The position numbers and the translations under genes are program-made. Of a stretch of 27,459 nucleotides of DNA, positions 3,713-22,373 are shown piece by piece (positions within the stretch are counted from its first letter, which is position 1; the number at the start of each line of letters is the position of its first letter). The notes beneath the pieces were generated by a model. The model was not told where the DNA came from, did no database searches, and was given only the letters and a program-made list of their open reading frames with translations. Origin of the DNA: a virus; the IMG/VR virus record IMGVR_UViG_3300013126_000195, positions 1-27,459 of that record; one strand, written 5' to 3'.

Positions 3713-4237
3713 ATGGAGTTTAAAGTGGATAAAAAGTCTTATGTTTTTCAGGAAATTAAGGAAGAAACTTTTGTTTATGATGATAAAATCATCAAGATTA
3801 AGCCTTATCTTAGTTTTGGAGAACAATTGTTACTAATTAAGAGTTATATTGAAACTTGCTTTGATGATCAGAGTATGACCAAATTAGCTAGTTTAAAATC
3901 GGATAGATTTGGTGCTGAATGGATTATGATGCTAACTGTAATTGATATGTGTACTGATATTGAAGTTGATGAACTCAGAGATTATGATTATCATCTGTAC
4001 AGAATTTGGCACATTGTTCAGGACAAGATTATAAACTACAATGATTTTATTTCAATCTTAAATAAATCTGTTGAAGAATACATGAATGAAAGAAATTCTA
4101 TTTCATCTATTCTCGAAAGATTGATGAAAGAATTTGAAGATAATTTCGGTGAAGAAAAACTACAGGCATTGAAATCAGAATTAGTCAGTATTGTAGAAAA
4201 ATTCAAAAGTTTGCCTTTGAGTAACTTACAGTCATAG
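3713..4237 (+). CDS. Probable tail-assembly chaperone-like protein
   Basis: A 174-residue, acidic, mostly alpha-helical protein. The N-terminal part (K-I-K-P-Y-L-S-F-G-E-Q) resembles phage proteins encoded just before the tape measure gene that act as tail-assembly chaperones; this is a context-based guess. The start lies only three bases after the previous stop, with no clear ribosome site, so translation is probably by reinitiation. I looked for the -1 frameshift that commonly links the two chaperone forms. No slippery heptamer fits near the end, and the downstream frame has its own stop at 4222-4224 and its own ATG. Confidence 0.55.
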   Translation: MEFKVDKKSYVFQEIKEETFVYDDKIIKIKPYLSFGEQLLLIKSYIETCFDDQSMTKLASLKSDRFGAEWIMMLTVIDMCTDIEVDELRDYDYHLYRIWHIVQDKIINYNDFISILNKSVEEYMNERNSISSILERLMKEFEDNFGEEKLQALKSELVSIVEKFKSLPLSNLQS

Positions 4238-4239
4238 TT

Positions 4240-4515
4240 ATGATTTTCGGAAAATTGAAAAAGAATTTAAATGAGAAATGTCCTTATTGTAAGAACATCT
4301 TACAGTTAAGGACATTTCAATCTGATAGAATTGTTGATGGTGAATTAGTTTCACTGGATGAAGATACTATAGTTTGTTCTAATCAATATTGCGATTATCA
4401 GAGAGATGTAGAAGAAAAGAGAAAGAGAAAAAAGGAGTTGAAAGATAATGCAAACGCTTACAAGTCCTTTGAAAAACCAAAAAGATTTGGAAATTCTTTT
4501 GGAAAAAGTGGCTGA
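4240..4515 (+). CDS. Small zinc-ribbon protein
   Basis: A 91-residue protein with a four-cysteine zinc-ribbon pattern: CPYC at 14-17 and C-S-N-Q-Y-C in the middle, followed by a highly basic K/R/E-rich tail. It probably binds zinc and perhaps nucleic acid or a tail/head partner. It starts two bases after the previous stop. Its last 68 bases overlap the next gene in another frame, an unusually long overlap, but the cysteine pattern supports it as real. Confidence 0.6.
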   Translation: MIFGKLKKNLNEKCPYCKNILQLRTFQSDRIVDGELVSLDEDTIVCSNQYCDYQRDVEEKRKRKKELKDNANAYKSFEKPKRFGNSFGKSG

Positions 4516-5002
4516 GGAAATAATAGAAGAAGTAGCAGAAGATGTCATGGAGAATTTACGATCTCAGATTTTAGACAATGTTTATACTATTGCAAGCTGG
4601 TATGCGCCTGATGATAATATGAAACCAACAGGTGAACCAACATGGGAATTTCTAAATTCTTGGAACTGGAAACCATTGAAGAAAACATTGAAAACAATGA
4701 GTAAAAAATTGTTCTATGATTATGCTGGAACAGGAATGTCGAATAACAGTAGAAGATGGATTCATGGTAGTCCCATTCCTGGATATGCTGATTCAAGAAA
4801 AAATTTAGAAGATATTCTAAACAATAAATTTACAGGTTATAATTACGGCCCTACTTCTTCTTTGGTTGATGGTGCAGGAAATTATTTCTCGCACGAAAGA
4901 ACACCATATTGGGAATCCTTTATCAGAGATATGATTGATAATGGTGGTTTGGAAATTTTATTCGATATAGCTTTTTATAAAAGAGGTTTTGTTAAAACAT
5001 AG
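4448..5002 (+). CDS. Putative tail-completion / HK97 gp10-like protein
   Basis: A 184-residue protein starting 11 bases after AGGAG. The N-terminal third is an amphipathic acidic helix (about 15-40), followed by a domain with a Y-x-P...P-T-G-E-P-T-W-E-F-L-N-S-W stretch. That stretch is reminiscent of HK97 gp10-family head-tail joining or tail-completion proteins (typically Y-E-P-T-G-x-L-x-x-S). The rest contains aromatic-rich segments. The family assignment is tentative; position upstream of the tape measure gene fits. Its 5' end overlaps the zinc-ribbon gene. Confidence 0.5.
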   Translation: MQTLTSPLKNQKDLEILLEKVAEEIIEEVAEDVMENLRSQILDNVYTIASWYAPDDNMKPTGEPTWEFLNSWNWKPLKKTLKTMSKKLFYDYAGTGMSNNSRRWIHGSPIPGYADSRKNLEDILNNKFTGYNYGPTSSLVDGAGNYFSHERTPYWESFIRDMIDNGGLEILFDIAFYKRGFVKT

Positions 5003-5011
5003 GAGGTTTTT

Positions 5012-5215
5012 ATGGAAAATATTAATGCTAAGTTTTGGTGGCAAAGTAAAACGGTGTGGTTGGGTGTGCTTCAAACCATGATTGGTATTTTACTGATCGT
5101 TGCTGATTTTCTGCAAAAAGGGAACTTCTCACCTTCTGAGGCTACTCTTTTGGTGACTGGTATTCTAACCGTTGTTTTGCGCATCTGGTTTACAGATAGT
5201 GCAATTGCCAAATAA
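5012..5215 (+). CDS. Holin-like small membrane protein
   Basis: A 67-residue protein with a short charged N-terminus (W-W-Q-S-K-T-V-W), a membrane helix (about 16-34), a polar loop and a second helix (about 43-60) ending in a polar tail. The SKTVWLG...SP..A..LV.G.LTVVLR pattern is common in small phage membrane proteins annotated as holin-like. It has a strong AGGAGG site seven bases before ATG and is the last gene before a terminator. A lysis role is plausible, but no endolysin gene is visible in this window to pair with it. Confidence 0.6.
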   Translation: MENINAKFWWQSKTVWLGVLQTMIGILLIVADFLQKGNFSPSEATLLVTGILTVVLRIWFTDSAIAK

Positions 5216-5225
5216 TTTTGGTATT

Positions 5226-5261
5226 AGAACAAGACAGATTTATTTCTGTCTTGTTCTTTTT
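5226..5261 (+). terminator. Rho-independent terminator
   Basis: A perfect 13-bp stem (AGAACAAGACAGA at 5226-5238 with its complement at 5245-5257), a 6-base loop and a T tract through 5261. It closes the operon ending in the holin-like gene and isolates the following recombination cassette. Confidence 0.92.
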
Positions 5262-5275
5262 CCTTTGGAGGAAAG

Positions 5276-5743
5276 ATGACAGAAGAATATTTATACGCAT
5301 TTGACTTATCTCTTAGTTGCACAGGTTTATCTATTTTTACCAATGATGGAAAATGTGTCTTTTGCACATCCATAGAAACAAAGGATTATGACACACATCC
5401 TTTGAAATTGAAATTTATTGGAGATAGAGTTTTATATTTTAGATCAATTTATAAACCTTTTAAAATAATTGTAGAACAAGGATTTTCAAGATTTAATGCT
5501 TCTACTCAAGCTATTTTTAAAGTTAATGGTCTTATTAATTATTTGTTCTATGATGTTGAACAGATTTTTCTTCCAGCTACCACAGTTAAGAAGATAATTC
5601 TAAATGATGGTCACGCTAAAAAAGAAAATATAAGAGATTATGTAATGTCAAAATATCCAGATATGAGTTTTAAAAATTTGGATGAAAGTGATAGTTTTTC
5701 AATTGGTTTAGCATATTTTATCAGGGAGAATATTTTAAAATGA
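5276..5743 (+). CDS. RuvC-like Holliday junction resolvase
   Basis: A 155-residue RNase H-fold nuclease, the usual size for phage and poxvirus RuvC-like resolvases. The four acidic residues are visible: D10 in AFDLSLSCTGLSIF, E67 in IIVEQGF, and D136/D139 in NLDESDSFSIGLAYF. The Asn/Gln-rich helix after the glutamate also fits. It should cut branched DNA during recombination or before packaging. GGAGG precedes the ATG. The last four bases overlap the tyrosine recombinase start (ATGA), so the two are co-translated. Confidence 0.85.
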   Translation: MTEEYLYAFDLSLSCTGLSIFTNDGKCVFCTSIETKDYDTHPLKLKFIGDRVLYFRSIYKPFKIIVEQGFSRFNASTQAIFKVNGLINYLFYDVEQIFLPATTVKKIILNDGHAKKENIRDYVMSKYPDMSFKNLDESDSFSIGLAYFIRENILK

Positions 5744-6756
5744 CAAGAAAAACTTTTCGTAAAGTTATTACGAGTGATGAATGTATTGAAAAAATCCACA
5801 AGAAAAATAAAGAATTTATTACAAAATTCTTGAAAGACAAAAATATGAGATCATCCGATCTTACGATTAGCAACTACCAGAGTGATTTGAACATTTTTTT
5901 TTGTTGGAATGTCGAGTATAATGAGAACAAAATATTTACAGATGTGAAGAAACTAGAGATTAGCGATTTCTTTATATTTTGCACTGAGGAATTACGATGG
6001 GGGTCTGCAAGAATTAACCGAATGAGGTCTTGTCTTAGTTCCTTCTCTGTCTTTCTGGAGAGGTTTTATGACGAAGATTACCCAAATTTTAAAAACAGAA
6101 TTTTGGTTGCAGTAGAAACCATGCCGAAGAACGAAGTTAGAGAAAAAACAATTCTTTCAGAAGAACAGATTGATAGTTTGTTTACCTATTTAAAAGAAAA
6201 TAATATGAAACAAGAAGCATGTTGGTTGGCTCTAGCTATTGCTAGTGGTGCTAGATTATCTGAATTATTTAGATTTGATATTGATATTCTTGATGAAAAC
6301 CATACTGCCTTCAATGGTCTTTTTATGGAAACTCTAAAAACCATTAAGACTAAAGGTAGAACAAAAAATGGTAAAATGATTTATAAGTATATTATTCGAG
6401 ATATATTTTTACCATACTATAAAGATTGGTTGGAAGAAAGAGAAAATATTTTATCTAAACACAATGTGGATGACCATCTTTCTTTATTTATTCAATTAGA
6501 CGGAAAACCCGCCACAATTCCTGTTATTAGAAACTGGATTACTAAGTTTGAAAAGGTTTTAGGCGTTGATTTATATCCTCACTGTTTTCGTCATTATGCT
6601 ACAACCTATCTTGTAAAGGCAGGATTATCTACTACTCTCATCAAGGAATTATATGGTTGGAGTGATGAAAAAATGGTTTCTATTTATACGGATATGGATG
6701 CAAAAGATAGAAAATGGGATGATTTGGATAATTTAAAAAATAAACTTAATTCTTAG
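5740..6756 (+). CDS. Tyrosine recombinase / integrase family protein
   Basis: A 338-residue recombinase. Residues 20-125 form the SAM-like DNA-binding arm; 140-335 form the catalytic domain with R172 (ASGARLSEL), a beta-hairpin lysine near 203-205, H281 and R284 (HCFRHYATT), W307 in place of the second histidine (LYGWSDE) and the nucleophile Y316 (SIYTD). All key residues are present, so it should be active. It could integrate the phage, resolve genome multimers or invert/excise DNA. It overlaps the RuvC-like gene by four bases, and both sit directly before the tape measure gene, an unusual place for an integrase. No attachment site could be identified from the sequence alone. Confidence 0.88.
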   Translation: MTRKTFRKVITSDECIEKIHKKNKEFITKFLKDKNMRSSDLTISNYQSDLNIFFCWNVEYNENKIFTDVKKLEISDFFIFCTEELRWGSARINRMRSCLSSFSVFLERFYDEDYPNFKNRILVAVETMPKNEVREKTILSEEQIDSLFTYLKENNMKQEACWLALAIASGARLSELFRFDIDILDENHTAFNGLFMETLKTIKTKGRTKNGKMIYKYIIRDIFLPYYKDWLEERENILSKHNVDDHLSLFIQLDGKPATIPVIRNWITKFEKVLGVDLYPHCFRHYATTYLVKAGLSTTLIKELYGWSDEKMVSIYTDMDAKDRKWDDLDNLKNKLNS

Positions 6757-6772
6757 GCATTATTTAATGCCT
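6755..6772 (+). terminator. Short stem-loop after the recombinase (weak terminator)
   Basis: A 7-bp perfect stem (AGGCATT/AATGCCT) with a 4-base loop starts inside the recombinase stop codon. The T run after it is poor (TTGATTTGG), so termination would be partial at best. Confidence 0.4.
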
Positions 6773-6789: not shown

Positions 6790-8655
6790 ATGGCAGGAAG
6801 TAAGTATACATTAGAACTTGCGGCAAAATTAAATCAAGCTAGTTTAGATGCTGTAATAAAAGGTATTGCTGATAGAAAAGTTCCAATGGTTGTTACTGTT
6901 AAAATAGATACAACGCCCGGTTCTAGTGCTGGAGATGTTCCACAAATTATTAAAGATAGCATAGCAAAAATAGAAGCAAGTGCTTCAAAGATAATAGGAA
7001 TAAATGCTAGTCAATGGGAAGATTTAGCAACCGGAATAAAGACTACGACAGCATATACCATAGAGTATATGGACAAAGAAAACAACCTGAGAAAAGAGAA
7101 TTTCAGATGGGCGAATGACCAATGGAATAAAACTATAAGTTTTCAAGAAAATCGTCTAGCAAATGAAAAACAGGAACAAAGAGAACTAAAAGAAAAAAAA
7201 AGACTTGAAGATATAAATCTAAAAATCGAAGCGCAAAAACTTGATTATATGAATAAACAAGTTGAAACTGCTAAGAGATTACAAGCGTCTATGAAACCTC
7301 TTACTGGTTCTGCGGATAAAACAGCCGCAGAAACAGAGGCATCTGATATATTGTCAATGGATGCTAAAGACCCTAAGAATTTTGATAAAATGGCTGAGGC
7401 GGGTGATCGTTTACAATTAGCATATAAAAAAGCTGTTGTAGAAAGTTCAAGACTTGTTGCATTAGCTAGAGAAGAAAAATCAGAAGATGAAAAAAGATTT
7501 TCGTTAAAACAGAAAATACTTTTAGCGGAAACAAAGTTATCCTTTTTAAAATCTAGTTCAAAAAGAAGTCTTGCTGAAACATTGGCTTCTGAGATAAAAT
7601 CCGATATTGCTTCAGGTGCAGACCCAAAAGACATCGAAGCCAAGATGACAAGATTTAAAAAGATGTATGCCGAAGCTGAAAAAGAATCTCGGAGACAGAT
7701 TCAGGCGGCTAGAGATTTAAAAGTAATTGAAGATAAAAGATTTTCTGAAAAACAGAAATTATTATTGCTTGAAACAAGAATTGGTCAATTAAAAGATAGT
7801 GCTAAGAAAACCGATGCTAATACATTAGCCGCTGAAATAAAAAGAGATATAGCCGCAAACGCTGACCCTAAAGATATTCAAGCTAAAATGACTACACTTA
7901 GACAAAAGTATAGTGAAGCATTGGTGGAATCTAGAAAAATAACTAATGAAGAAAATAAAAGAGCAAGAGAACTTGAAAGATCGTTAAAAGCTATGGATTC
8001 CATAAAACAAAAAGCTAGAGAATTTTTAGCCGCCGCTGGTGCTGGTAAGTATAGTGGTGGAAAAGAATTAGATATGTCTAAAGGTTTGGCACAAAATATA
8101 TTGGCTGAAACAGACCCAGACAAAGTAAAGGCTTTTTATAATCAATTAAAAGAAAACAATAAGACACTTCAAACATCTCAAAGAAACATATTTGATATTA
8201 GACAAGAAATCGGAAATGTTATCAAGAGATTCGCAGAATGGACTGTTGTTACTTTAACTATGCACCAAGCTATGGCTATGGTAAACCAATCAATACAATA
8301 CCTAATTCAATTAGATAGTGAAATGAACAAGATTAGATTGGTAACAGGTCAAAGTTCTGAGGATACTCAAAGATTAGCTATTTCATATAATAAAATGGCT
8401 AAGGAATTAGGTGTTTCTACTCTTGAAGTTGCAAAAGGTAGTTTGGAATGGATTAGACAAGGTAAAACTGTTGCTGAAACTAACCAATTGTTAACTACGT
8501 CTACAATGATGAGTAAACTGGCTAACCTTGATGCGGCACAAAGTACGGAATATTTAACTTCTATCTTAGCGGCTTATAACCTAGAAGCAAAAGATAGTAT
8601 TAGTATTGTTGATAAGTTGACAGCCGTTGATAATTCTAGTGCGACCTCAGTGGGT
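6790..8655 (+). CDS. Tail tape measure protein, exon 1
   Basis: First exon (622 codons) of the tape measure gene; join 6790-8655, 8994-9127 and 9533-13679 to give 6147 nt and 2048 residues. The protein sets tail length and helps DNA entry. Residues about 100-400 are a charged coiled coil containing two clear 82-residue repeats starting at residues 233 and 315. Residues about 470-622 belong to the TP901-type tape measure core (M-A-K-E-L-G-V-S-T-L-E-V, V-D-K-L-T-A-V-D-N). GGAGG precedes the ATG. The frame is stopped by TAA one codon into the intron at 8656, but reading continues as S-V-G|E-L-A-G-A-L across the splice junction, exactly as in related tape measure proteins. Confidence 0.92.
7486..7977 (+). 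repeat. Two 82-residue coding repeats in the tape measure gene
   Basis: The segments starting at codons 233 (D-E-K-R-F-S) and 315 (D-K-R-F-S) share the order E-K-Q-K-x-L-L, A-S/A-E-I-K, A-D-P-K-D-I and A-K-M-T at the same spacing, with a period of 246 nt. A more degenerate copy seems to lie just before (about 7240-7485). Tape measure proteins often grow or shrink by such units, changing tail length. Confidence 0.7.
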
Positions 8656-8993
8656 TAAGAAATTTGCCCAAATATACGGAAACGTATAGAAAATATTTGA
8701 CAAATTTGGATTTTAATGATACAATATTTGAAAATATTTTTAGTTGATGACTATATCGGTTAACGCCTATCGCAAAGGTAAGACCGAAGGAAGAATTTAT
8801 ATAGGAGATATATAAATAACCTCTACAGACTGTGGGATATAATTAGTAATAATTATGTTGAAGTCATCCCCTTTTTTAAATAAAGGTGAATATACAGTCG
8901 GAACTGCGTATACTATGCGAAGTATCAAAACGCAGAATTAAGTAGAAATACTTAGTCGCCTATAATTTTAGGTCAGAAAAGTAACAGATTTTG
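8656..8993 (+). ncRNA. Group I intron 1 in the tape measure gene (no ORF)
   Basis: A 338-nt self-splicing intron candidate. P1 forms between the 5' exon end UGGGU (8651-8655) and GCCCA (8666-8670), with the diagnostic U.G pair at the cut site. A TATACG-GAAA-CGTATA hairpin (8673-8688) follows. P3 pairs GATGACT (8746-8752) with AGTCATC (8862-8868). P7 pairs GACTGT (8828-8833) with ACAGTC (8894-8899). The AT-rich hairpin between the P7 and P3 strands resembles P7.1 of subgroup IA. CCTTT/AAAGG gives P8, and CTGCG (8904-8908) with CGCAG (8931-8935) gives P9. The last base is G (8993). Splicing rejoins the reading frame exactly. No endonuclease gene fits inside. Activity is inferred from structure, not shown. 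Confidence 0.88.
8697..8725 (+). promoter_or_regulatory. Near-consensus promoter inside intron 1
   Basis: TTGACA at 8697-8702, a 17-base spacer and TACAAT at 8720-8725, preceded by an extended -10 TGA. Transcripts would start inside the intron just before the P3 strand and run into exon 2, so they could not splice normally at this intron. The same arrangement occurs in intron 2. Confidence 0.6.
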
Positions 8994-9127
8994 GAATTGG
9001 CAGGCGCATTACAAAGAACGGCAGTTACCGCTCAACAATCAGGTGTTGGTTTTGATAGTTTGGTAGGTTATATAGGTACGGTTTCTAGTATTTCTAGGAA
9101 GGCGAGTGAAAGTATTGGTGAATCCTT
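8994..9127 (+). CDS. Tail tape measure protein, exon 2
   Basis: A 134-nt internal exon beginning with codons for E-L-A-G-A-L-Q-R-T-A-V and ending with S-I-G-E-S and the first two bases of a Phe codon. This is the most conserved part of TP901-type tape measure proteins (S-x-G-E-L-A-x-A-L-x-R-S and I-G-N-S-x-K-T-I-F-x-R in relatives). Its in-frame fit to exon 1 and exon 3 is the main evidence that both flanking pieces are introns rather than damage. On its own it has no start or stop codon and would be missed by gene finders. Confidence 0.9.
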
Positions 9128-9532
9128 ACCCATTGTCACTATTGACAAGATTTGAGGCATTATGATATAATAAAATCATAATGAAAACTTCCTTTGATGA
9201 TCCTAATTTAACCCATTTAAATTAGGTGGTTCGAAAATCCAATCTAAAAATTGGACAACGAATTGGAAGTTGTATAATAGTATTTAAAGGAATTAAGATG
9301 ATTATTGAGAATGGGAAACTTGATAATCTGAAATCAATTCCGTTTTTTTGAAAAATAAAATACTATTATATAACGCCATTAACGACTGAGCAAGGAAGAA
9401 GCAATCAAATTGCTTATGCAACAGTCTGAACTACACATATACATAAAAGTGTAGAGAGAAGGTCAAGTGTAAAGACACTTATTGAAGAACCTTTTCCGCT
9501 TCTGAAAAGAAGTCATAAAAAGTAACAGAATG
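9128..9532 (+). ncRNA. Group I intron 2 in the tape measure gene (no ORF)
   Basis: A 405-nt intron candidate. P1 pairs the 5' exon end CCUU (9124-9127) with GAGG (9154-9157), leaving U.G at the splice site. P3 pairs CTTCCTT (9188-9194) with AAGGAAG (9392-9398). P7 pairs GACTG (9384-9388) with CAGTC (9422-9426). P8 is AAGCAA (9399-9404) with TTGCTT (9410-9415). A 10-bp AT-rich hairpin (CCTAATTTAA and complement) and a 12-bp stem (ATAATAGTATTT and complement) give P5/P6-like extensions. The last base is G (9532). The 3' end AAAAGTAACAGA resembles that of intron 1, suggesting kinship. Splicing makes TT|T-AAA-ACC, restoring F-K-T-I-F-T-R. No ORF is present. Confidence 0.88.
9142..9171 (+). promoter_or_regulatory. 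Consensus promoter inside intron 2
   Basis: Perfect TTGACA at 9142-9147, an 18-base spacer that contains the intron guide sequence, and perfect TATAAT at 9166-9171 with an extended -10 TGA. It would transcribe the rest of the intron, exon 3 and possibly the downstream tail genes. Confidence 0.65.
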
Positions 9533-12500
9533 TAAAACCATATTCACACGTTATCAAGATATTAAAACAGGCAGATTAGATGAAGAAGGATTAGGTATCA
9601 ACAATGTTGCTGATGCCTTATTGCGCGTTAAAGACGCTACTGGACAAAATATTGAAATTTTAGATCGTCAAACAGGTGAGTTTAGAAGTTTTGAAGAAGT
9701 TCTAAATCAGTTATGGCCCGTTTGGGATAAATTAAATGCCGTAGAACAAGCAAACATAAGCAAAGCACTTGCGGGTACAAGGCAACGCGAAAACTTACTT
9801 ATACTTTTGAACAATCAAGCAACATACCAAAAATTAGTAAATGCTGAGGTTGCATCGGGTGGTTTAGCATTAGATAGATACGGAATTTATCTTGAATCTA
9901 TCGAAGCTAAAACAAATAAATTAAAAGCAACATCAGAAGGAATGTGGCAAGATTTTATAACGAGTGATGAAATTATTAGAGTTATAGATTTAGGTATTGC
10001 CATACTTAATTTAATTGATTCTATTGGTGGATTACAAACCATATTACCTATAGTTATTGCTTCTTTAGCTATGATGAAAGCTGAGATGGTAGGTAATGGC
10101 GTATTCGCTTTGGTTGCTGGATTACAGAATCTTTTAGGCAATATGGCTGCAAGTATTATTTTGACTGGTAGATTAACATCTGCTACTATTTCTTTTTCAT
10201 CTGCCGCAAAAGCGGCAGGAATAGCAATGAGTACAGCCGCCGCCGCCGCAAACACTTGGATTATAGCCATAACTGGTTTAATTGTTGCTTACCAAAAATA
10301 TCAACAAATTAAAAAAGATGCAGACCAATCAAGTGGTGAAGCTACAGATATATTTAAAGATAAAATTAACGAAGTTGCCGTAACCACGAATGATATAACG
10401 GCTGTTACCAGTAAATACGTTGAGAAGATGAAGATTCTAAAAGAAGGTTTGGCTGAAATAAGTTTCTTTGGTTCTTTAGTAGTTGACAAAAACAAAATGA
10501 TGTCTGATGTTTTCAAGCAAACAAGTGACACACTTGCGGCACTAACATCAACTTATGACGAATATGTCAGAGAAATGAATAGCGCGCAATACGAAACTGG
10601 TTATGTAAACGCTTCTCTAGTAATGACAGCAGAACAATTTCGTCAGCTAAAAGCAATTCAAGACGCATATAATGATACAACACATGACAGCACAATGGCG
10701 GTAGAAGGAACTGGTACTGCGGTAGCGGCTACAACAAAAAAGATTTATTCTTTTATTGATGCTTTGTTAAAACTTACACCTGAAATAAGTTCCATGAGGA
10801 ACTTATTAGATAAAGGTCTTGCTGGAACTTTTACAACTGACGATATTGCAGAACTTCAAAATCTAACTGGTTATGCTCAAAAATTTCTCATAGAAGAAAA
10901 TGGTCAAATTAAACTCAATATAGATGCTTTTTCTTTATACGCTGCTGAAAAAGTAAAAGCGCAAATGGAAGTTGCAAGACTAAATAACGCAACTGATTTA
11001 GAAATATCTATTTTGCAAAGCTTAATTGATGAAATATATGGTGTAGCAGATGCTTACGATAAAGCGAATAGCTTTATGGGTAAATTTGGCGAAACTGTAA
11101 ATAATGTAAATTCTGCCAAAACACTTTTGGAAAAAGGTATTGGTGGAACTTTTAGTGCTGAGGATATAACAACACTTCAAGAATTGACAGGTGATGCCGA
11201 AGCATATCTTGTTTCCGAAGAAGGTCAAGTAAAATTAAATATTGAAGCATTTAGAGACTATGAAAAAACAAAATTAGAATCAATGGTTGCGTCTTATACT
11301 GCCGCAGGTGCTGCTCAAATTGAGATCGACATTCTGAACGGTTTGATAAAAGCACTTGACGAAGTTGCAGATAAAACAGATAAAACTAAGGATTTTGTTG
11401 GTTTCTTCAATGCCTCTTTGATGCAAGCATCGGATTTAGCCGGTTCTTTCAAAGAAATATCTGATAATTTACAGAGATTAAATCAAGATTTCAGAGATGG
11501 CTCTATTAGCTCTGATGAATATTTTTCTCAAATAAATGAGCAACTTAAAAATATTGATTTTGAAAAATCTTTTGCTGGAAATAAGCAAGCCGCTCAAAGT
11601 TTTTTTTATGGAATGGTAGAAAATTCTTATTTTGCTTTGGGAAAAATTACAGAAGATTTTGAAAAACAAAAAATATCCGTCACTGATTATACTGACCAAT
11701 TATCAAAACTTGGTGATTTACTCTTAACAATATCCGACTATACTTCAAAATATGGTTCTTCTCTAGGATTGACAAGTGGAGAGATAGCTAATGTTGTTTC
11801 TAATACAGACACATTATCTTCTTCTGTTGGTGAATTGATTAAGATGCAAGAATTAAATGTTGTCATTCAAGACGCATTTACTCAATCTCTGACTGGTTCT
11901 CTTGAATTTGGGACTAAAGCATTTGAAGATTATGCTGATAAAATTGGTTATGTTGCTGAACAATCCGGTGTTGTTTTCAAAGATATAAATGGAAATGCCC
12001 TTAGTTCTGCTGATGAAATTTCTAATTATTTGAAGGCTGTACCTGGAAACTTACAAAATATAACCGATCAAATGGCTAATCAGACTGGTTCAGTTGTCAA
12101 TAGAATGGTGCGTAGTGCTGGAACAATGTTATTGGAATTGTATCGAGCAATGCAAGGATTTAAATTAGATTTAAATATCAGAGCAAGTAGAGCGGGTGGT
12201 AGTTTAAAAATACCACTTACTGCAAGTGCTGGTGGATTTACAATTCCTTTACCAACAATCGAAATTCCAAATATTGATATAAAAGTAGGTACTAATCTTA
12301 GCAGTGGAACTTCTGGTGGATTTGATAAAGGTGATAATGAAGGAGTTTCTGGTACTGTATCAAATCCTTTCAAGATCATCGAAGATACATTGAAAGAACT
12401 TTCAACTACTGATTTTGGTCTGGATTGGACAGATGATATCTACAAGACGACAGCGGCAATGGAAACTGCAAGTAAAGCCGCGGGAGATTATTCTAACAAA

Positions 12501-13679
12501 GTAGGTTCAATTTCCAATAAATTCAATGAACTTAAAAAAGCCGCACAAGCCGCCGCTAATCAGGCTAAAGATGATGCCAAATTCTTAGATGAATTACTAA
12601 AGATAGTCATCGAAAGAATAAAACAACAAAAACAAGCTGAAAAAGATGCTTTGCAACAATCTTTGGAATCCTATAAAGCAATCATCGACAAAAGAAAAGA
12701 ACTATTAAAAAGTAAACAGGAAGAATTGAATTATGACGAACAATTAGCTGAAAAGAACTCTAGTTTGGCAAAAATTCAAGGTGAAATACTTCAATTAAAA
12801 CTTGATGATAGTGAAGAAGCAAAAGCTAAAAGACTGAAATTAGAAGAAGAAGCCGCAAAAATTCAGAAAGATATAAATAAAACTCAGAGAGATCAAGGTT
12901 TCAAAGAGGAAGAAAAGGCTTTAGATTCAGACTATGGTATTTATGAAAAATATATCAAAGATAAAATAAAAGTTATTGACGATTATCTTTCAAAAAGTGG
13001 TCAAATAACCTTAGATGCTATTGCTCTAATCAATCAAAAATCATCTGGTTTCTATGAAGAATTAATTTCTTGGAATAGAATTTATGGTGATGGTATTGAT
13101 ATGACTATCACAAATGCTTGGAATAATGCCTATGACGCTCTTGAAAGATATAGAAATCTTGCTGGAAAGATTGATTATCAATTTGCATTAAACGCCATAA
13201 AGGAAGCTGAAAAAGCCGCCAATGCACTACTTGAAAGTTTAAATTCTTTAGGTGGTGGAGGTTCGGGGGGTAAAGGTTCTGGTGGTTCTGACTCAAAAGC
13301 TAAACCTTCTTATAAAACTGGTTCTTCGAATGTAACATCTGCCAATGGAAAAATTGCGGCATATCACGATGGTGGTGTTGTTGAAGGTTCTATTGGACAA
13401 GAAGTCTTTGCAAAGCTAATGAGCGGTGAAACTGTCGTAACTAGATCGCAAGCTGAAAAGTTTATGAAATATACGCTTCCTGGTTTGGCAAAAATTTCCT
13501 CAAAAGATATGAGTGGTTCTATGAGTTTTGGTAGTCTTATCAATATGAACGTTGAAGGCAATTTAGATTCTTCCGTTTTACCAAAAATAGAAGATATTGT
13601 AAATAATGCTGTTATGAAACTGAATAACTCAATGTTCACAAGAGGAATAACAAGAAAGGCTAATCAGTACGGAGTTTAA
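9533..13679 (+). CDS. Tail tape measure protein, exon 3
   Basis: The last 4147 nt of the tape measure gene, read in phase after exon 2 (F-K-T-I-F-T-R-Y-Q-D-I-K), so the ORF does not really start at the TTG at 9621. The first part completes the conserved core (Q-A-N-I-S-K-A-L-A-G-T-R-Q). Hydrophobic segments around 9980-10300 are likely membrane-active helices used for DNA entry. Two 107-residue repeats (LLDKG at 10803, LLEKG at 11124) follow. A long coiled coil lies around 12580-13000, then a Gly/Ser-rich linker (about 13250-13300) and a C-terminal domain with Y-H-D-G-G-V-V and S-G-E-T-V-V-T-R-S-Q, typical of tape measure C-termini. Confidence 0.92.
10785..11430 (+). repeat. Two 107-residue coding repeats in the tape measure gene
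   Basis: Both copies read L-L-x-K-G-x-x-G-T-F, then D-I-x-x-L-Q-x-L-T-G, then G-Q-x-K-L-N-I-x-A-F, and end with an E-I-x-I-L-like helix. Copy starts (LLDKG, LLEKG) are 321 nt apart. DNA identity is modest, so duplication is old. Confidence 0.7.
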
Positions 13680-19274: not shown

Positions 19275-19790
19275 CTAATTTTTAGTAGAACCCAATCCAC
19301 CAATTCTATCTTCACTGGTATTATCTTCATCTGCTAAGAGATATTTTTGAAAAATACATTGTGCAATTCTGTCACCAGTTTTTACAACAATTTCCATATC
19401 GCCTTCATTTCTGATTTTTAACCAATAATGACCTTCATTATCAGGATTATTATAGTAATCACTATCACCGATTCCAACAGTATTAGCAAGACGTAAGAAA
19501 TATTTGAAACCTAATCCGCTTCTAGGATAGAATGATAAAAATTCATCCGGTAACATATATGCTTTAAATCCAGTTGGAATTTTGATAGAACCACCAACTC
19601 CTAAAGTAAAATCAATTGGTGAAAAAATATCGTAACCAGCAGAGTTTTTAGTTGATCGTTTTGGAAGGATAAGTTTATTATGTTTATCAGTTAATTCCGT
19701 TACTTGATGTTCGGTTGCAGTTGTAACATAACAATTATTATCTGTCAACCATTGAATGAGAGATATTTTGTCAAAACCACGTGTTTTCAT
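19275..19790 (-). CDS. dut: dUTP diphosphatase (trimeric dUTPase)
   Basis: A 171-residue trimeric dUTPase, which converts dUTP to dUMP and pyrophosphate, keeping uracil out of DNA and feeding dTMP synthesis. All five motifs are visible: AGYDIFSP (51-58), PRSGLGFKY (89-97), GIGDSDYY (106-113, catalytic Asp109; relatives usually have I where this has the second G), GDRIAQCIF (139-147) and RIGGLGST (162-169). A 40-residue N-terminal extension and the insert D-Y-Y-N-N-P-D-N-E-G resemble clostridial enzymes. AAGAAGGAA lies before the ATG. It is the last gene of the leftward operon and follows the HNH gene by seven bases. Confidence 0.9.
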   Translation of the reverse strand: MKTRGFDKISLIQWLTDNNCYVTTATEHQVTELTDKHNKLILPKRSTKNSAGYDIFSPIDFTLGVGGSIKIPTGFKAYMLPDEFLSFYPRSGLGFKYFLRLANTVGIGDSDYYNNPDNEGHYWLKIRNEGDMEIVVKTGDRIAQCIFQKYLLADEDNTSEDRIGGLGSTKN

Positions 19791-19797
19791 ATTTTAT

Positions 19798-20466
19798 TTA
19801 TTCCTTCTTTTTAAATACTGTATAAATATCATTTTCTCTATTTATTTCTTCACCAAAATATTTTATCTCTGCTTCTTTTCTTGCGGATACAGCATCTTCG
19901 AATTTAGAATATCTCCCCAAGTGAATATGTTTTCTTTTTATTTTTATGTACGCCTCCCATTTATTTCTCCTTTTATCAAATGAAACGCCTGGGAATGAAG
20001 ATGTATTATTTGACTGTTTACCCTTATTATATCCGTTGATTGTAAAATCCACGATTCTAAGATTTTCTCTACGATTGTCTAGTCTATTCCTATTTATATG
20101 GTCTATGACCGAATTTTCTTTCTTGTAGAAATCCATAACAAATTCATGTAAAGAGAAACCATCGCAAGTTCTAACATATCCATGTACTAAAAACCACTTG
20201 TGTTCTTTTATTTTTTCAATATTTTCAACATCTACAATAGCGCGGGCAACCTCTATATTTTTCATATTATATAAACATATTTCAGCATATTTTTGGTTAA
20301 TTAAAATTATTTCATTTGCATCGTATTTTGTTCTAGTTACTTTCCCATATTTTTTCAATAAATAAAAATGTGCTGCACAAACAAAATAACCATTTTCAAA
20401 TACTCTAATTGCTTTCTTTTCACAATGCTTGCATAGAGTTCCAGTCGGAATTATTTTTTTTACCAC
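19798..20466 (-). CDS. Free-standing HNH homing endonuclease with AP2 domain
   Basis: A 222-residue protein starting with GTG after AAAGGA. Residues 12-33 form a zinc-finger pattern (C12, C15, C30, H33) common in HNH homing nucleases. The HNH nuclease core includes H107 and the DHINRNRLDNRRENLR stretch at 122-137. Residues about 152-206 form an AP2/ERF-type DNA-binding domain (S-F-P-G-V-S-F-D-K-R-R-N-K-W). It should nick or cut a specific DNA site and spread by homing. It lies between nrdJ, whose stop codon it nearly touches (5 bases), and dut, interrupting what would otherwise be a plain nucleotide-metabolism operon. It is not inside an intron. Confidence 0.87.
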   Translation of the reverse strand: MVKKIIPTGTLCKHCEKKAIRVFENGYFVCAAHFYLLKKYGKVTRTKYDANEIILINQKYAEICLYNMKNIEVARAIVDVENIEKIKEHKWFLVHGYVRTCDGFSLHEFVMDFYKKENSVIDHINRNRLDNRRENLRIVDFTINGYNKGKQSNNTSSFPGVSFDKRRNKWEAYIKIKRKHIHLGRYSKFEDAVSARKEAEIKYFGEEINRENDIYTVFKKKE

Positions 20467-20471
20467 GAATA

Positions 20472-22373
20472 TTATTCCTTTGGTTTTTCCAAGATTTGAA
20501 AACTTTTTGAGTTATCGCGATAGATTGTACCACCCTTTAGACCAGATTTCCACATATACATATAAATATCATAAATATCTTGCGCTGTAGAATTTTCTGG
20601 AATATTTATTGTCTTAGAAATTGCATTTGAGACATATGTTTGCCATGCCGCTTGAGTTGCAATATGATCTTTCCAATGAATTTCATTTGCTGTTTTAAAA
20701 ATATTCTGAAATTCTTCTGGTACACTTACGCAATTTTTAATACTTCCAGTTTTAGAAACATATTCTAAAATTTCCTTTCTTTGTTCGTCATTGAAATTAA
20801 ATTCTTTTAATTTTCTATCTAACGCTGGATTTGTTTCAAAAAGACTATCTACCGCAATATTACCAATTCCTTCTGTGATATTTCTTTTATATGCTAATGC
20901 AAAAAATGGTTCAATGGAAGAATTTACACCACCAATAATGGCAATACTGCCAGTCGGAGGAAGGCTTTGTACAGCAACGTTTCTAACGCCAATTTCCTTA
21001 AATTCTTCAAAAGGAACTTCAAATTTTTTATAAGGATTATCGTAAAGTGTCTTTTTAATAATGTGAAAATCTACTTTATCTTTATCATAAAATCTAAAAG
21101 CACCACGTTCCTTAGCTAATTCAAAAGATTCAATCCAAGAATAATATCCGATAAACCAACTCAAATATTCAGCAAGTTCTACAGCCTCTTTTGAGTCATA
21201 GGGGATATTTAATTCTACTAATAAATCAGCCCAACCTAAAACCCCTAATCCTAAACGCCGTAAACCTTTTGTAACTTCATTGATTTTTTCTACTGGTGCT
21301 TCACCAACTTCGGTAACATTCTCAAGAAATCTAGTTGTTGTTTGAACAACATCTTTTAAAATATCATAATTTATTGATTTTGTTTTACTGTCGAACATTG
21401 AATGAAGATTGATAGAGGCTAAAATACAACTCTCGTATGGCATGAGGGGAACTTCTCCACAGGGGTTTGTAGCCTTGATTTCACCAATATAATCTCTAAC
21501 AATATTATCTTTATTGATTCTAGAACCCACGACTACACCTGGGTCGGCTGATTCCCATGCCTGTTCTGCAATTTGTTGTAGAATTTCCTTAGCTTTTACA
21601 GTTTTCACGACTTGTTTTGTTGAAGGTGAAATCAAATTCCAATCTTCATCGTTTTCAACAGCTTTCATAAATTCATCACTTAAGGAAACCGATATATTAA
21701 AATGTGTTAATTGATCATCCAAAAGAGTTTTTTCCAAAATTCTTTCATACTTTGTTCCATTGATAACGCCATTTACAACATGAAGATTCCTGTCATACTC
21801 TTGCATCAGACGTTTGTTTCGTGCATTTAATTTTGATTTGAAACCAATAAACTTTTCAATATCAGGGTGAGAAACATCCATCAAACCAATCTGTGCGCCT
21901 CTCCTAGAGGCTTGTTGAATTACTTCTCCAGTTTGATCAAATAATGACATGAAACTTAAAGGGCCACTAGCTTTACCACCAGTAGAATTTATCAAAGCAC
22001 CTTCTTCTCTTACATCACTAAAATCATACCCCACACCACCACCCATAGCAAAAACTTCTGCGGCGTTTTGTAGTGTCTCGTAAATAGATTGCCTAGAATC
22101 TTTTATTGGAAGAACAAAACAATTAGCTAAATTTTTAATTCCAGTTCCAGCATTAGCAATGATTCTACCACCTGGAATAAAATAAAGATCATATAAAAAT
22201 TTATAATATTTATCAGCGATTTTCTTTATTTCTTCATCTGTTGCTCCATAATTCCTTTCCCCCTCCGCAATAAAATCGGCAATTTTTCTACAAGAGTCTT
22301 TCCATGTTTTACTCTTTCCAGTTGAATACTTTAATGCAAAAACCTTTTTAGCTTTTTCGTTTAGTTCAGCCAT
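20472..22373 (-). CDS. nrdJ: Class II (B12-dependent) ribonucleotide reductase, lacking the usual C-terminal Cys tail
   Basis: A 633-residue reductase that makes deoxynucleotides from ribonucleotides. The (beta/alpha)10 barrel shows the redox cysteines C85 (N-C-F-V-L-P-I) and C316 (Y-E-S-C-I-L-A-S-I-N-L) and the finger-loop catalytic set N303-C305-E307 (N-P-C-G-E). A glycine-rich M-G-G-G-V-G-Y-D-F-S-D stretch (110-120) and P-P-T-G-S-I-A loop fit NrdJ. The lack of an adjacent small-subunit gene supports class II. It ends at Q-I-L-E-K-P-K-E, so the C-terminal CxxC-type pair that normally re-reduces the active site is absent. Its stop overlaps the preceding MazG-like gene by one base. The HNH gene follows at once. 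Confidence 0.88.
   Translation of the reverse strand: MAELNEKAKKVFALKYSTGKSKTWKDSCRKIADFIAEGERNYGATDEEIKKIADKYYKFLYDLYFIPGGRIIANAGTGIKNLANCFVLPIKDSRQSIYETLQNAAEVFAMGGGVGYDFSDVREEGALINSTGGKASGPLSFMSLFDQTGEVIQQASRRGAQIGLMDVSHPDIEKFIGFKSKLNARNKRLMQEYDRNLHVVNGVINGTKYERILEKTLLDDQLTHFNISVSLSDEFMKAVENDEDWNLISPSTKQVVKTVKAKEILQQIAEQAWESADPGVVVGSRINKDNIVRDYIGEIKATNPCGEVPLMPYESCILASINLHSMFDSKTKSINYDILKDVVQTTTRFLENVTEVGEAPVEKINEVTKGLRRLGLGVLGWADLLVELNIPYDSKEAVELAEYLSWFIGYYSWIESFELAKERGAFRFYDKDKVDFHIIKKTLYDNPYKKFEVPFEEFKEIGVRNVAVQSLPPTGSIAIIGGVNSSIEPFFALAYKRNITEGIGNIAVDSLFETNPALDRKLKEFNFNDEQRKEILEYVSKTGSIKNCVSVPEEFQNIFKTANEIHWKDHIATQAAWQTYVSNAISKTINIPENSTAQDIYDIYMYMWKSGLKGGTIYRDNSKSFQILEKPKE

Follow-up and report, generated by a model that had tools for sequence, protein, structure and literature searches.

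Is the tape measure gene of this phage broken, or is it a normal gene interrupted by elements that leave its transcript? The window, that is, the whole stretch of DNA analysed, is a 27,459-nt phage record from IMG/VR. By frame joining, its tape measure gene lies on the plus strand in three coding pieces between positions 6790 and 13679. Exon 1 (6790-8655, +) has 622 codons and ends with ...S A T S V G; its 3' end reads TCA GTG GGT (8655) and is followed by an in-frame TAA stop at 8656. Exon 2 (8994-9127, +) is 134 nt long and encodes E L A G A L ... S I G E S plus two nucleotides. The first base of exon 3 (9533-13679, +) completes the split Phe codon. The three pieces amount to 6147 nt, which is divisible by three, with one terminal stop and a product of 2048 aa. 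The junctions in the joined frame restore ...SATSVG|ELAGAL... and ...SESIGES-F-KTIF.... The initial annotation had placed the end of the frame at 8656 and had given these intron and exon boundaries, which were confirmed to the base. Its joined coding length of 6147 nt in frame was also obtained, and both motifs that it expected to be restored, S-V-G-E-L-A-G-A-L and S-I-G-E-S-F-K-T-I-F, were seen at the junctions. Automatic annotation would likely report a disrupted gene here and may lose the 134-nt exon; once the exons are joined correctly, the gene is intact.

The joined protein was compared with the Pfam PhageMin_Tail family (PF10145). The joined core scored 96.6 bits, above the gathering score, and covered profile positions 5-201 of 201. 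Exon 1 alone scored 41.9 bits (profile 5-93) and exon 3 alone had no PhageMin_Tail match. With a tape-measure HMM built without the window's own sequence, the joined protein scored 277.8 bits and exons 1, 2 and 3 scored 99.8, 31.6 and 113.8 bits, respectively, the value for exon 2 alone corresponding to an E of 1.9e-11. The joined core matched 96 GenBank phage records and, among the matches listed, the homologous protein is one uninterrupted piece across both junctions. The multiple alignment with the homologues placed a gap at neither junction. In the alignment of the spliced product to tape measure proteins, which had been proposed as a check, the joined exons are exactly collinear with uninterrupted homologues. 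Considering the joined frame, the PhageMin_Tail score, the uninterrupted homologues and the HMM scores, the two inserts are additions to an otherwise normal gene.

The in-frame TAA at 8656 ends exon 1 and could also end a separate product. Therefore, the interruption might be read otherwise than by RNA splicing, either as translational bypassing or as two or three separate tape-measure polypeptides. We regard this as extremely improbable. Known translationally bypassed segments are tens of nucleotides long, against 338 and 405 nt here. Only some 44 residues of the conserved PhageMin_Tail core are encoded by exon 2, and the inserts show full group I anatomy with covariation, as described below.

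Two covariance models were built with the window left out, R1 from 28 introns of the intron 2 type and R2 from 8 introns of the intron 1 type. Intron 1 (8656-8993, +) is 338 nt long, and its fold has a dinucleotide-shuffle z of -5.7, with 0 of 100 shuffles as low. The exon strand of P1 is UGGGU (8651-8655, +), whose last base U8655 forms a U.G pair with G8666. The internal guide AAUUU|GCCCA (AAUUUGCCCA; 8661-8670, +) pairs with all 10 bases of the ligated exons UGGGU|GAAUU. In this pairing, 8666-8670 with 8651-8655 makes P1, and 8661-8665 with 8994-8998 makes P10, which has 5 bp, is contiguous with P1 and is kept in a related phage contig (L058, described below). P3 is formed by GAUGACU (8746-8752, +; MFE fold and covariation in relatives) and AGUCAUC (8862-8868, +; covariation in relatives). 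Another P3, UAUAUC/GAUAUA, was considered and rejected, and the comparison with relatives supports GAUGACU/AGUCAUC. P4, CGGUU/GACCG (8757-8761/8782-8786, +), encloses P5 (8765-8768/8776-8779, +), both from the sequence and the MFE fold. The latter also gives P6 (8788-8790/8820-8822, +) and P6a (8795-8803/8809-8817, +). The P7 strands located by R2 are C-(bulge A)-GACUG (8826-8832, +), the guanosine site, and CAGUC-G (8895-8900, +). The R2 model and the MFE fold agree on the P8 hairpin CCUUU/AAAGG (8870-8886, +), on P9 CUGCGU/ACGCAG with an inner P9a (8904-8935, +), and on the P9.1 (with a GAAA loop) and P9.2 hairpins (8938-8972, +). They also agree on an extra hairpin AUAAUUA-GUAA-UAAUUAU (8839-8856, +), which is P7.1/P7.2-like and lies between P7 5' and P3 3'. 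The plain energy fold alone recovers P3 to P6, P8 and P9. The intron ends with the terminal G, the omega G, at 8993 (+), as read from the sequence. The extra hairpin is an IA-type feature. Since only one of the extra P7.1/P7.2 helices is seen, intron 1 is called IA-like rather than IA.

Intron 2 (9128-9532, +) is 405 nt long with a fold z of -7.6 (0 of 100 dinucleotide shuffles as low). Its P1 has only 4 bp, the exon strand CCUU (9124-9127, +) with GAGG (9154-9157), and carries U9127.G9154 at the cut. P3 is CUUCCUU/AAGGAAG (9188-9194 with 9392-9398, +), found by the P3 pairing test. The R1 model places P7, A-(bulge C)-GACUG/CAGUC-U (9382-9388 with 9422-9427, +). R1 and the fold together give the P8 hairpin AAGCAAU/AUUGCUU (9399-9415, +) and P9 CUACAC/GUGUAG (9431-9454, +). 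P9.1 and P9.2 follow with approximate limits of 9456-9508 (+), and P9.1 holds the clade motif GUCAAGUGUAAAGACACUU. The terminal G is at 9532 (+), and the junction phase is the same in four other phage loci (L013, L058, L063 and L071). The P7.1/P7.2-like helix between P7 5' and P3 3' is absent from intron 2. Its P10 pairing of the guide with the 3' exon is weak, and the P4-P6 domain, clear in the MFE fold of intron 1, was not made out. The short P1, the weak P10 and the P4-P6 domain of intron 2 are the weakest points of the anatomy. Both introns possess the P3-P7 pseudoknotted core with P8 between and a P7 with a bulged nucleotide, and the P1 with U.G, P3, P7, P8 and terminal G that the initial annotation had ascribed to each were all seen on the sequence. 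The longest stop-free run in either intron is 33-41 aa on the plus strand and 46-62 aa on the minus strand. Therefore, both introns are ORF-less, and an endonuclease gene is found in neither.

Rfam searches of the window gave nothing significant, whether run at the gathering threshold or with E allowed up to 10, and RF00028 reached only 11.7 bits on intron 1, far below its cut-off of 50. A search with the Rfam group I model in Infernal had been proposed as a check, with "no group I hit" as the refutation. The window indeed has no match at the gathering score. However, this refutation is misleading because the Rfam model under-scores proven tape-measure introns as well. In a control on the tape measure gene of Vibrio phage ICP1, RF00028 gave 77.9, 38.9 and 28.9 bits, two of the three being below the cut-off of 50. 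The same point on the Rfam model and phage introns was made in a 2025 study of Bastillevirinae (PMC11878797). Eight further relatives were searched with Rfam and none matched at the gathering score; one member of the R1 family (L046) passes the Rfam cut-off with 72.9 bits.

The models made from the relatives found both introns. R2 finds intron 1 with 135.1 bits (E ~9e-31) at 8822-8990 and R1 finds intron 2 with 131.5 bits (E ~4e-22) at 9378-9531; the relatives were gathered by short 3'-end patterns of the introns themselves, so that the model match is partly circular there, and P7, P8 and P9 lie outside these patterns. The next best place in the window scored 13.7-16.2 bits. Each intron was also matched by the model of the other (42.5 and 46.6 bits). 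Compensatory changes were present at 18 of 32 pairs in the R1 training alignment and at 21 of 31 pairs in that of R2. The covariation score was 0.50 for the R1 set (0.16 shuffled) and 0.71 for the R2 set (0.21 shuffled), and in both alignments a shift of the partner by one column brings it down to background. The outer P7 pair occurs as A-U, G-C, C-G and U-A across the relatives. Endonuclease genes sit between the P3 strands in many related introns, and for this reason the P3 test over all introns was uninformative; an anchored version worked. P3 matches its own partner with at least 6 bp in 67% of 21 introns, compared with 13% when partners are swapped. Group I anatomy in the window and covariation in the relatives are thus direct observations. 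The anatomy and the covariance models make the two tandem ORF-less group I introns in a TP901-type tape measure gene, as first annotated, the best reading of the locus. We are highly confident that the inserts are two independent ORF-less IA-like group I introns and that removal of both restores a 2048-residue protein of the PhageMin_Tail type.

Splicing of both introns is likely. Each intron in the precursor mRNA would fold into a group I ribozyme, whose internal guide near the intron 5' end would form P1 with the last bases of the preceding exon, the U.G pair lying at the cut; the guide of intron 1 would also pair with the start of the downstream exon as P10. As expected from group I biochemistry, a guanosine cofactor in P7 would attack after U8655 or U9127. 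The freed exon would then attack after G8993 or G9532 and the exons would be joined. The two splicing events can be independent because each intron has its own guide sequence. It could also be that the inserts are group I by descent, with one or both now dead for splicing, in a dying gene on a contig from a decaying prophage or a defective phage. Splicing in the window phage is, after all, deduced from the DNA, the P1 of intron 2 is short (4 bp), and the endonuclease gene is missing from both introns. Nevertheless, 2048 codons are open across the three exons, both introns keep intact core helices and an intact G-binding pocket, and the neighbouring structural genes in the window are open. Group I introns without an ORF commonly splice. 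We therefore consider the loss of splicing improbable and prefer two functional introns.

A proven example of such a gene is that of Vibrio phage ICP1. Its tape measure gene has four exons and three introns, whose splicing was proven by RT-PCR and RNA-seq from infected cells, and usually only the middle intron has a nuclease gene, an HNH endonuclease (PMC10448857). ICP1 resembles the window in that a single tape measure gene has several introns, some of them nuclease-free, and in the restoration of the protein by splicing, proven in ICP1. On the other hand, ICP1 is another phage type with another tape measure lineage. R1 and R2 did not find the ICP1 introns, and the link between the window and ICP1 comes from Rfam and anatomy only. 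Phage group IA introns are known from T4, SPO1, Twort and Bastillevirinae (PMC3984707, PMC11878797). Like those of the window, they occupy conserved codons of essential genes, have IA-type peripheral helices and carry a nuclease gene optionally. However, the cited introns lie mostly in replication, nucleotide and terminase genes, whereas the window's lie in a tape measure gene. The Bastillevirinae introns were found with Rfam and GISSD models (PMC11878797), whereas those of the window do not come near the Rfam cut-off. Tape measure genes with several group I introns are already in the literature, and the window adds a further, clean case, which brings to light a group of tape-measure introns missed by the standard tools.

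Relatives of the two introns were searched for in other phages. BLAST of the whole insert in phages had no match at 1e-5, BLAST of intron 1 alone gave only chance-level matches, and BLAST of intron 2 in plasmids gave none. With intron 2 alone, its 3' 80-110 bases matched Microcystis phage MaeS (MT362618, L011; E 2e-5) and a human-gut phage (MT835481, L010; E 8e-4). As in the window, the introns of both phages are inside tape measure genes. In contrast to the window's, they have a long intron ORF, endonuclease-like, and occupy other codons. The tape measure gene of the human-gut phage has a further intron that passes the Rfam cut-off with 75.1 bits. In IMG/VR contigs, one 3'-end pattern had 95 matching stretches and the other 92. 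When these loci and the window were scanned by script for P7 and the 3' end, 147 candidate introns emerged. In 44 of the 95 stretches with the P9.1 motif of intron 2, tape-measure coding was nearby on the same strand, as judged with a profile that included the window's protein. In a stricter test, 36 of the 147 introns were directly followed by tape-measure coding. Since Rfam misses these introns and 44 of 95 motif loci are near tape-measure coding, mis-annotation of tape measure genes is probably frequent among metagenomic phages. R1 and R2 would find many such missed introns.

A close counterpart of the window is the IMG/VR phage contig IMGVR_UViG_3300037493_002946 (L058), which has introns at exactly both sites of the window and the same 134-nt exon (5776-5909) between them. 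A tail protein of L058 is 44% identical to the window's. The P1 of its first-site intron is CAGCU/GGCUG where the window has UGGGU/GCCCA, so that the sequence differs and the pairing is kept; its P3, GAUAACU/AGUUAUC against GAUGACU/AGUCAUC, covaries; and its P10 is the same as in intron 1. The gene (3940-6760) has at least two introns beyond these two, at least four in all, and one extra intron with an endonuclease gene is followed by a 34-nt exon. In terms of the protein model, codon 144 follows intron 1 and codon 188 is split by intron 2. The first site is also used in L058 and L023, and the second in L013, L058, L063 and L071. The second intron of L023 lies no more than a few bases from the other site.

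The two introns of the window both end in AAAAGTAACAGA, from which the initial annotation had argued for a probable common ancestor. The motif belongs to an entire clade of phage introns and is no sign of a recent common origin. The shared ending and the match of each intron to the other's model might still suggest that one intron was duplicated in tandem inside the gene. However, the intron tree separates the two by 1.12 changes per column, and their own neighbours elsewhere are at 0.33-0.45. Intron 1 groups, with support, among nine introns, and the majority of these have an extra helix that intron 2 lacks. In addition, both sites are occupied by introns in L058 as well. A duplication is therefore very unlikely. 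As the introns are far apart in the tree and nearer to introns of other phages, and as the P7.1/P7.2-like helix is in intron 1 only, they were acquired separately or diverged long ago. A scheme with one lineage per insertion site was also rejected; the insertion-site groups scatter in the tree.

The introns may have arrived by homing into conserved codons, and the endonuclease genes of both would have been lost or would act in trans. A candidate for homing in trans is a free-standing HNH_3/AP2 endonuclease gene in the window (19801-20466, -), situated between the ribonucleotide reductase large-subunit gene (20475-22373, -) and the dUTPase gene (19278-19790). The closest relatives of intron 2 (L040, L104 and L098; also L099) lie in loci with large phage proteins that are not tape measure proteins. 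Introns of this clade therefore appear to move between genes. We tentatively propose, while holding it somewhat doubtful, that one clade of phage group I introns, mostly missed by Rfam, repeatedly settles in the conserved part of PhageMin_Tail tape measure genes. Its members would occupy at least six fixed codon positions, a single gene having up to four introns and exons down to 34 nt, and nuclease-free copies like the two of the window would be kept mobile by endonucleases of sister introns or of free-standing genes.

Several minor observations were also made. The tape measure genes of four loci (L087, L046, L091 and L100) have several group I introns each; some of these pass the Rfam cut-off and others, at different codons, do not. 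In L040, a 257-aa ORF without a Pfam match is directly upstream of the intron core. The ribonucleotide reductase of the window is closest to phage B12-dependent (class II) enzymes, with Microcystis phage MaAM05 as the best match (34.7%). Directly upstream of the tape measure gene and within the structural module, at 5276-6756 (+), there are two genes, one for a RuvC-like resolvase and one of the integrase family (phrog_1, 111 bits). RuvC is likewise encoded just before the tape measure gene in Enterocloster phage PMBT24.
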